64,000 nt of DNA from the NCBI GenBank assembly GCA_021851875.1, contig JAJZQI010000003.1, forward strand, positions 62,001-126,000, read 5' to 3'. Of this stretch, positions 36,420 through 38,670 are shown piece after piece. Made by a program: the position numbers and the translations under genes. The first letter of the stretch is position 1; each line of letters starts with the position of its first letter. Under the pieces are notes generated by a model. The model was not told the origin of the DNA and did not search any database. It was given only the letters and a program-made list of their open reading frames with translations. This stretch comes from Pseudomonadota bacterium (lineage in GTDB: Bacteria; Pseudomonadota; Gammaproteobacteria; Burkholderiales; JAJZQI01).

Positions 36420-36803
36420 TTAATTGGGAGCGGATACGAGGGAAGGGGGTGTGGTATGCGACACGCTTTTCTTGCCATGCAGCGGGAACTGCCGCTGCAT
36501 GATCAACACGGTGGCAAACAGGTCGTTCAGTGGCATGTGTTTCGTGACATGGGCGAGGCGGACGAGTTTGCCGATCACATCATGCTGGGCGATGACCAGT
36601 TGCTCGTGGGCGGCGCGGCGCGCGACAGTGTGGGCGAATTCTGGTGGGTGGGCGTTGAAGTGGGCGACCTGTCTCATTGGGGTAATCTGACAGCCGTAAA
36701 CAAACACGCCGCCTAGCCGCTTTCGTGCGGCCGGGCGAGGCGTTCCAATACGGTGCGCAACGCACACTCCTTGTGCGGAGGGGAGTGGCGAAGGCCGCTC
36801 CAT
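36420..36803 (-). CDS. Uncertain small ORF in the fdxA-ybiB gap
   Basis: The 565-base gap between fdxA and ybiB holds open frames on both strands. This minus-strand frame (127 codons, or 85 from ATG 36677) has higher GC in third than first codon positions (by my count about 76% against 67% over 36456-36716), as real genes here should. The overlapping plus frame (36456-36716, good GGAAGGGGG site) shows the reverse, which suggests it is the shadow. The likely core contains AHEQLVIAQHDVIGKLV and LNDLFATVLIMQRQFPL. I do not recognise it. The long form would cover the NtrC-like site, favouring the shorter start. It may also be non-coding. Confidence 0.35.
   Translation of the reverse strand: MERPSPLPSAQGVCVAHRIGTPRPAARKRLGGVFVYGCQITPMRQVAHFNAHPPEFAHTVARRAAHEQLVIAQHDVIGKLVRLAHVTKHMPLNDLFATVLIMQRQFPLHGKKSVSHTTPPSLVSAPN
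36761..36777 (+). promoter_or_regulatory. NtrC-like enhancer site upstream of ybiB
   Basis: CGCACACTCCTTGTGCG: GCAC and GTGC half-sites separated by 7 bases, the geometry of NtrC sites (TGCAC-N7-GTGCA type). It lies about 80 bases upstream of a consensus sigma-54 promoter, a usual enhancer distance. A second partial dyad, GTGCG-CAA-CGCAC (36753-36765), overlaps it. The outer bases are not consensus T/A. Confidence 0.5.
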
Positions 36804-36849
36804 GCCATCTGCCTAAATAAAGTCAATAACATAGCCCGGCTTTTGGTGA

Positions 36850-36866
36850 TGGCACAGGTCTTGCTA
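36850..36866 (+). promoter_or_regulatory. Sigma-54 (RpoN) promoter of ybiB
   Basis: TGGCAC-AGGTC-TTGCTA matches the -24/-12 consensus TGGCAC-N5-TTGCW at every defined base, with the GG and GC spaced correctly. Expected start of transcription is about 36875-36877, some 30 bases before the ybiB ATG at 36907. Confidence 0.85.
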
Positions 36867-36906
36867 AACATTCTGCGATCTTAATTTTTCGTCAGATTGC
36901 GGAATT

Positions 36907-37893
36907 ATGGAAGCCTACTCCCATTTGTTAAAAGAAATCGGTCGCGGCACGCATGGCAGCACCTCGCTGTCGTTCAGCGAGGCCGAAAGCCTGTTCGGTG
37001 CCATGCTGGATGGCGGTGTGCCGGACATGGAGCTGGGTGCAATCCTCATGGCCTTCCGCTTCAAGGGTGAGTCGGTGGATGAGCTGGCCGGTTTTCTTTC
37101 CGCCCTGTCGAGCCGCATCAATCAGTTGCAATGGGACCACAGCGAGCTGCGGCCGGTTGTTCTGCCGAGCTATAACGGCGCCCGGCGGCAGGCCAACCTG
37201 CTGCCCTTGCTGGCCATGTGGCTGCGCAACCTCGGCATCCCGGTGCTGATCCATGGCACCTTGGGCGGTAATGGGCGCATTGCCAGCGCCTATATCCTGC
37301 GCGAACTGGGCATCATGCCCTGCGCCTCGATTCGCGAAGCGGAAGAGCGGCTGGTGCGCGACGGCATTGCGTTTGCGCCGATTTCCCTGCTGGCGCCCGG
37401 TTTGGCCAATCTGCTGATGCTGCGCCAACGCCTGGGGGTGCGCAGCAGCGCGCACAGTCTGGTCAAGCTGATCGATCCGTTTGTGAACGGCGGTTTGCGT
37501 ATCGTGAGCGTCAGTCACCCGGCCTATCTGGCAACGATGCACGATCTGCTCGGCATCATGGGGGCCAACGCCCTGCTGCTGCGCGCCACCGAGGGAGAGG
37601 CTTTTGCCAACCCCAAGCGCCGTCCGGCCATGACGCTGTTCCAGAACGGCGAATCAAAGCTCATGTTCGAAGCGGAAACGGGGGCGATCAAGGAATTGCC
37701 CAATCTGCCGCAAAGTATCGACGCGGCCACGACGGCCGAATGGTCGCGCAAGGTGCTGGCGCACGAGGCTGCCTTGCCTTCGCCGCTGGCCAATCAGCTG
37801 GCCTGCTGTCTCTATGGCGCGGGCGGTGCGGTCGATCTGGCGCAGGCCAAGGCGATTGTCGCGGTGGAAACCGGGACATTGCTGGCGGCCTGA
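36907..37893 (+). CDS. ybiB: YbiB-family nucleic-acid-binding protein (TrpD-like fold)
   Basis: 328 residues resembling anthranilate phosphoribosyltransferase: an N-terminal helical domain (YSHLLKEIGRGTHGSTSLSFSE ... ELGAILMAFRFKGES) and an alpha/beta part with VLIHGTLGGNGRI. The TrpD substrate loops are not conserved, and no trp genes are near; YbiB (TrpD2) of E. coli binds DNA or RNA instead of making phosphoribosyl-anthranilate. A sigma-54 promoter and NtrC-like site lie directly upstream, implying nitrogen-responsive expression. I know of no settled physiological role. Confidence 0.85.
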   Translation: MEAYSHLLKEIGRGTHGSTSLSFSEAESLFGAMLDGGVPDMELGAILMAFRFKGESVDELAGFLSALSSRINQLQWDHSELRPVVLPSYNGARRQANLLPLLAMWLRNLGIPVLIHGTLGGNGRIASAYILRELGIMPCASIREAEERLVRDGIAFAPISLLAPGLANLLMLRQRLGVRSSAHSLVKLIDPFVNGGLRIVSVSHPAYLATMHDLLGIMGANALLLRATEGEAFANPKRRPAMTLFQNGESKLMFEAETGAIKELPNLPQSIDAATTAEWSRKVLAHEAALPSPLANQLACCLYGAGGAVDLAQAKAIVAVETGTLLAA

Positions 37894-38085: not shown

Positions 38086-38670
38086 ATGGAACACCAGTTG
38101 CCCGCATTGCCTTATGCCATGGACGCACTGCAGCCGCACATGTCCAAGGAGACCTTCGAGTACCACTACAGCAAGCACCATCAGGCATATGTAACCAACC
38201 TGAACAACCTGATCAAGGGTACCGAATTCGAGAACCTGGGCCTGGAAGACATCGTCAAGAAGGCGCCGGCCGGCGGCGTATACAACAATGCCGCTCAGGT
38301 GTGGAACCATACCTTCTTCTGGAGTTGCATGAAACCCAACGGCGGTGGCGAGCCGACCGGTGCGCTGGCTGACGCCATCAAGGCCAAGTGGGGTTCTTTT
38401 GACGAGTTCAAGAAAGCCTTCCAGGCGTCTGCCGTAGGCAACTTCGGTTCCGGCTGGACCTGGCTGGTGAAAAAGGCCGACGGCAGCGTCGACATCGTCA
38501 ATATGGGCCCGGCCGGTACTCCGCTGACCACCGGCGACAAGCCGGTGTTGACCGTCGATGTGTGGGAGCATGCCTACTACATCGATTACCGCAATCTGCG
38601 GCCGAAGTTTGTTGAGACTTACCTCGGCAGCCTGGTGAACTGGGATTTTGCTGCTGCAAACTTTGCCTGA
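38086..38670 (+). CDS. sodB: Superoxide dismutase (Fe type)
   Basis: 194 residues from ATG 38086 ([15 protein letters not shown]), which follows CAGGAGAG. Metal ligands fit the family: His in [11 protein letters not shown], His in NHTFFW, and Asp/His in [13 protein letters not shown]. The tract [11 protein letters not shown] and the Gln in [11 protein letters not shown] favour iron over manganese, though cambialistic use cannot be excluded. No signal peptide, so cytoplasmic. Confidence 0.95.

Follow-up and report, generated by a model that had tools for sequence, protein, structure and literature searches.

A conserved predicted sigma-54 promoter, probably activated by NtrC, upstream of ybiB in a bacterial order

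The ybiB locus and its promoter element

The window, as we call the 64 kb (64,000-nucleotide) stretch of DNA that was analysed, carries a ybiB gene preceded by fdxA and a small open reading frame, orf86. The protein encoded by ybiB scores 375.6 bits against the YbiB profile NF006005 (cut-off 185), which places it within the TrpD2/YbiB family. YbiB is a protein with a solved structure and two known partners, nucleic acid and ObgE, but its role is not settled. The features of the locus are as follows.

36456-36716, + strand: gene for a small protein of 86 aa (orf86), between fdxA and ybiB
36753-36757, no strand assigned: GTGCG, a putative third half-site, proposed from its sequence and its co-variation with both dyad arms in the congener
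36761-36777, no strand assigned: CGCAC-N7-GTGCG, putative NtrC enhancer dyad, proposed from a congener copy at equal distance and from phased NtrC-type sites in relatives
36850-36865, + strand: sigma-54 -24/-12 promoter element TGGCAC-N5-TTGCT, from an exact match, its presence in the congener and conservation of the site class
36876, + strand: predicted transcription start, 12 bp past the GC of the -12 element
36907-37893, + strand: ybiB, TrpD2 family DNA-binding protein, 328 aa

The promoter element, TGGCACAGGTCTTGCT, lies 57 bp from the ybiB ATG at 36907 and has the GG at -24 and the GC at -12 with the right spacing (TGGCAC-N5-TTGC). It is the single exact match to TGGCACN5TTGCW in the entire window. 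The earlier note's assignment of an RpoN consensus to this site is sound. Matches with up to two mismatches number 40 against 45.9 expected, so that two-mismatch matches carry no meaning by themselves. Transcription from sigma-54 promoters standardly starts 12 bp downstream of the -12 GC, a geometry that would place the start of the ybiB transcript at 36876.

The flanking genes display features of their own. The longer open reading frame of orf86 has no match in Pfam or NCBIfam, and 27 of its 49 differences from the congener fall at third codon positions. Shortly after ybiB is sodB (38086-38670, + strand), which is found within about 1 kb of ybiB in many relatives (loci such as L131, L105 and L111); in some of them, a PP2C-type phosphatase gene also follows ybiB.

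Conservation of the promoter across the order

An order-level search of 399 genomes (E up to 1e-60) returned 128 ybiB loci from 124 genomes, a count that includes one locus with only 5 bp of upstream sequence (L189), which was nevertheless dropped from the tree described below. Within 250 bp upstream of ybiB on the sense strand, an exact -24/-12 site is present at 35 of the 128 loci and a site with at most one mismatch at 55, the latter spread over 18 of 32 families. Reversed, antisense and complemented patterns give no sites at all, the interior of the gene gives no exact and one one-mismatch site, and the expectation from DNA elsewhere in the same loci is 0.15 exact and 0.92 one-mismatch sites among the 128. 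A chance origin of the promoter was rejected on the basis of these controls, and the contrast between 55 conserved sites and control counts of 0-1 lends the RpoN reading strong support.

Similar comparisons were made at the level of the class, where 44 of 369 genomes matched and 28 of the 30 ybiB loci returned were checked. No sigma-54 site with up to one mismatch was found within 300 bp of ybiB in any of the 28. At three of these loci nasA lies upstream and cobA downstream, and at one cobA alone lies downstream; one nasA match is 1.1 kb upstream, and one cobA match is on the other strand.

The sole other genome of the same family in the comparison set (G001, hereafter the congener) provides a closer view. 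It contains TGGCATAGCTCTTGCT at the identical distance of 57 bp from the ybiB ATG, and the spacing of 89 bp to the -24 element is likewise retained by TGCACACTCCTTGTGCA, a TGCAC-N7-GTGCA dyad. The sequence that separates this dyad from the promoter, by contrast, has largely diverged.

Upstream dyad and NtrC-type sites

The earlier note also described an NtrC-like dyad before the promoter. The dyad is indeed present, beginning 89 bp before the -24 element, and may equally be written CGCACA-N5-TGTGCG; yet the bare pattern GCAC-N7-GTGC is found three times in the window where 2.97 occurrences are expected, so that the dyad is not significant taken alone. Scored against the NtrC-type enhancer consensus, which we take to be TGCACYA-N3-TRGTGCA, it is a weak match (9 of 14 positions, shuffle p about 0.5), whereas the congener dyad matches at 11 of 14. 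The window dyad gains weight from the congener, where the changes are symmetric: the half-sites GTGCG, CGCAC and GTGCG of the window become GTGCA, TGCAC and GTGCA, all three arms changing together, and the dyad symmetry is thereby retained. The first of these, at 36753-36757, forms GTGCG-CAA-CGCAC with the left dyad arm and may be functional. By eye, a weak IHF-like stretch is visible between dyad and promoter.

Elsewhere in the order, the region that begins 150 bp and ends 30 bp before the -24 element was scanned for sites that agree with the consensus TGCACYANNNTRGTGCA at 11 or more of its 14 positions. Such strong NtrC-type sites occur in 26 of the 55 promoter-bearing upstream regions and are lacking in 29, as compared with a mean of 0.82 in shuffled sequence (the largest count over 100 shuffles being three) and none for the reversed pattern. 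The interior of the gene gives one such site in 55 loci, and one of the 73 upstream regions without a sigma-54 site has one. The earlier note had called for such a comparison of both sites upstream of ybiB in relatives. The sites are also in helical phase. With each family and position counted once (24 entries) and the period scanned over ten values, the mean resultant is 0.69-0.71 at 10.5-10.75 bp, a value equalled in none of 2000 random draws, and position -89 of the window dyad falls in the same phase.

Regulators and sigma-54 sites in the host genome

The host genome encodes both rpoN (TIGR02395, 486.9 bits, cut-off 277.35) and ntrC (TIGR01818, 718.5 bits, cut-off 558.6). Ten enhancer-binding protein matches are present, of which five are strong: NtrC, NifA (735 bits, cut-off 528.85) and three that pass none of the cut-offs shown. 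The core TGGCACN5TTGC occurs 26 times genome-wide, compared with seven occurrences of the reversed control pattern. Family scans of ten open reading frames downstream of exact cores identified an ammonium transporter, a pair of NMT1-type binding proteins that may serve nitrate-type transport, a FeMo-co-domain radical SAM protein, a class V aminotransferase, a pilin and a hook-length protein. PEP carboxylase and dihydrouridine synthase, also among the ten, are not typical, and the last reading frame has no family. NifA and the exact sites before the FeMo-co radical SAM gene and the nearby class V aminotransferase gene (G000:C18; L029, L060, L062) make nitrogen fixation by this organism probable. 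The ammonium transporter gene, amtB, has TGCACCGTAATAGTGCA 68 bp upstream of its sigma-54 site, and the cobA-nirB operon has TGCACCAATATGGTGCC 71 bp upstream of a one-mismatch site, a layout shared with the ybiB promoter region.

It could be that the ybiB promoter is activated by an enhancer-binding protein other than NtrC, such as NifA or one of the three further strong activators, a supply of candidates that makes this reading conceivable, as does the poor match of the window dyad to the NtrC consensus. We nonetheless consider it unlikely, given the phased NtrC-type sites of relatives, the TGCAC-N7-GTGCA dyad of the congener and the layout that ybiB has in common with nasA, nirB and amtB. 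NifA sites have the motif TGT-N10-ACA, and none is seen by eye next to the window dyad. Activation by NtrC, as proposed in the earlier note, is favoured by family-wide enrichment and phasing, by ntrC itself and by the amtB and cobA-nirB arrangements, but not by the 9 of 14 positions that the window dyad matches.

ybiB within nitrate-assimilation clusters

Among the 73 ybiB loci without a site of their own, 36 adjoin nasA, nirB or cobA as judged by tblastn. At these first thresholds the 128 loci are divided into 50 with the promoter only, five with both promoter and cluster (all in one family), 36 with the cluster only and 37 with neither; the Fisher p for this division is 9e-7, calculated over loci that are not independent. 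Neighbouring genes were called crudely, by a longest-ORF rule, in choosing open reading frames for family searches, and the counts come from tblastn.

Fifteen cluster genomes, picked by hand, were read further upstream, and 14 of them contain a sigma-54 site with no more than one mismatch. In 11 genomes the site lies just before nasA; of the other three sites, one precedes nirB, one precedes cobA-nirB on the opposite strand, and one is 515 bp ahead of ybiB. No such site was seen on this further reading in the remaining genome, G009. For three of the 11 nasA genes the longest reading starts at or before the site, and the later start codons of relatives fall after it. The upstream sites in 14 of 15 genomes suggest that the ybiB copies of these clusters are probably under sigma-54 control too.

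An alternative origin for the promoter in the window would be that it is a former nasA promoter, a real site whose nasA gene is absent here, with nitrogen control inherited by position rather than selected. In other families, relatives of orf86 do precede the promoter of nasA or of ybiB (L106, L107, L243, L237, L238, L251), and some relatives have the order orf86, promoter, nasA, ybiB: in three genomes of family f35 an orf86 relative precedes the nasA promoter, and in G029 fdxA stands in front as well. However, 50 loci that fall outside the nas/nir/cob pattern retain the element in front of a stand-alone ybiB, as would not be expected of a decaying relic, and such an origin seems distinctly improbable.

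Distribution of the two arrangements on the YbiB tree

A rapidly built protein tree with 127 rows, rooted at its midpoint and subject to a long-branch warning, is split in two (SH-aLRT 92). The clade containing the window (89 rows) comprises 50 rows with the promoter only, five with both, 25 in clusters and nine with neither, so that 80 of 89 fit a pattern. The second clade (38 rows) has no sigma-54 site directly before ybiB; 11 of its members lie in clusters, and it accounts for 27 of the 36 tree rows with neither pattern. In the window's clade, a two-mismatch site is present no more than 600 bp away in eight of the nine unfitting rows, about one being expected from a background of 1-7 per 128 loci per 250 bp. 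Four loci of the second clade (f8, f32) were read further, and no nirB/nasA/cobA cluster was seen there.

Four genomes of one family (G047, G090, G232, G375) contain two ybiB copies, with a site before one copy only. The locus pairs are:

L144 and L178
L145 and L175
L146 and L159
L147 and L154

Family f47 includes two genomes whose second copy, the one that has no promoter, is separated by no more than about 3 kb from a nirB/nasA/cobA cluster.

Interpretation

That the site is a chance resemblance and a sigma-70 promoter alone drives ybiB is very improbable, for although two-mismatch matches and the dyad both stand at chance level in the window, exact sites occupy this position at 35 of 128 loci, where 0.15 would be expected, and the congener retains both place and distance.

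Very probably, the sigma-54 promoter drives ybiB, most plausibly through phosphorylated NtrC, and ybiB belongs to an NtrC/sigma-54 regulon conserved across the order. When fixed nitrogen is scarce, phosphorylated NtrC would bind about 90 bp upstream and switch on the promoter, with the transcript beginning near 36876. In the order as a whole, ybiB would come under this control by one of two routes, either through its own -24/-12 promoter or within a nasA/nirB/cobA operon behind the promoter of that operon. The conserved promoter and NtrC-type site suggest that nitrogen shortage is the condition under which cells produce YbiB, and nitrogen-dependent production of the protein is a supported prediction from these elements.

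For E. coli YbiB, binding to nucleic acid and to the Obg GTPase has been shown. Conceivably, then, YbiB is in this order a dedicated nitrogen-stress protein, driven by NtrC during nitrogen limitation or nitrate use, which through these partners tunes ribosome assembly or translation to the nitrogen supply; we offer this as a tentative idea that may well prove wrong. The LexA operon of E. coli ybiB pointed to the SOS response. The conserved NtrC/sigma-54 link and the frequent placement in nitrate clusters point to another, testable setting, nitrogen limitation, and the promoter offers a testable clue to the job of YbiB in these bacteria.

The gene ybiB is not known to belong to any described Ntr regulon, and it is here a candidate addition to that regulon across a whole bacterial order. 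In the open-licence literature we found no link of YbiB to NtrC, sigma-54 or nitrate, and no report of trpD2 with nitrogen and RpoN, though earlier accounts could be present in other literature or use different names for the gene. The excerpts consulted of PMC5445326, PMC5491218, PMC3916325, PMC5979394 and PMC8467165 mention no nitrogen control of YbiB under any of its names; those of PMC5979394 contain two rows labelled 'glycosyl transferase family protein'.

Comparison with known systems

E. coli YbiB belongs to the same protein family as that of the window, with 40% identity. Its Arg92 and Arg123, reported in the portions consulted of PMC10123104 to bind ObgE, align with invariant arginines in an alignment of seven YbiB proteins. 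The E. coli gene sits behind dinG in an operon described as LexA-regulated (PMC10123104, same portions), whereas the loci of the order differ: dinG was not found next to ybiB at any of the 128.

The nasA/nirB/cobA operons of the order have, before the first gene, a sigma-54 site of the type seen in the window together with an NtrC-type site, of which the window has a putative counterpart, and ybiB often lies inside the cluster. In the host, by contrast, ybiB is separate from nirB, which sits on another contig.

Enteric NtrC/sigma-54 promoters of the glnAp2 type combine a TGGCAC-N5-TTGC core with an upstream enhancer of the TGCAC-N7-GTGCA type. The core and the presence of ntrC and rpoN are common to these systems and the host genome, and the dyad of the window is a putative enhancer of the same type; what distinguishes the window is its single weak dyad and its target gene, ybiB.
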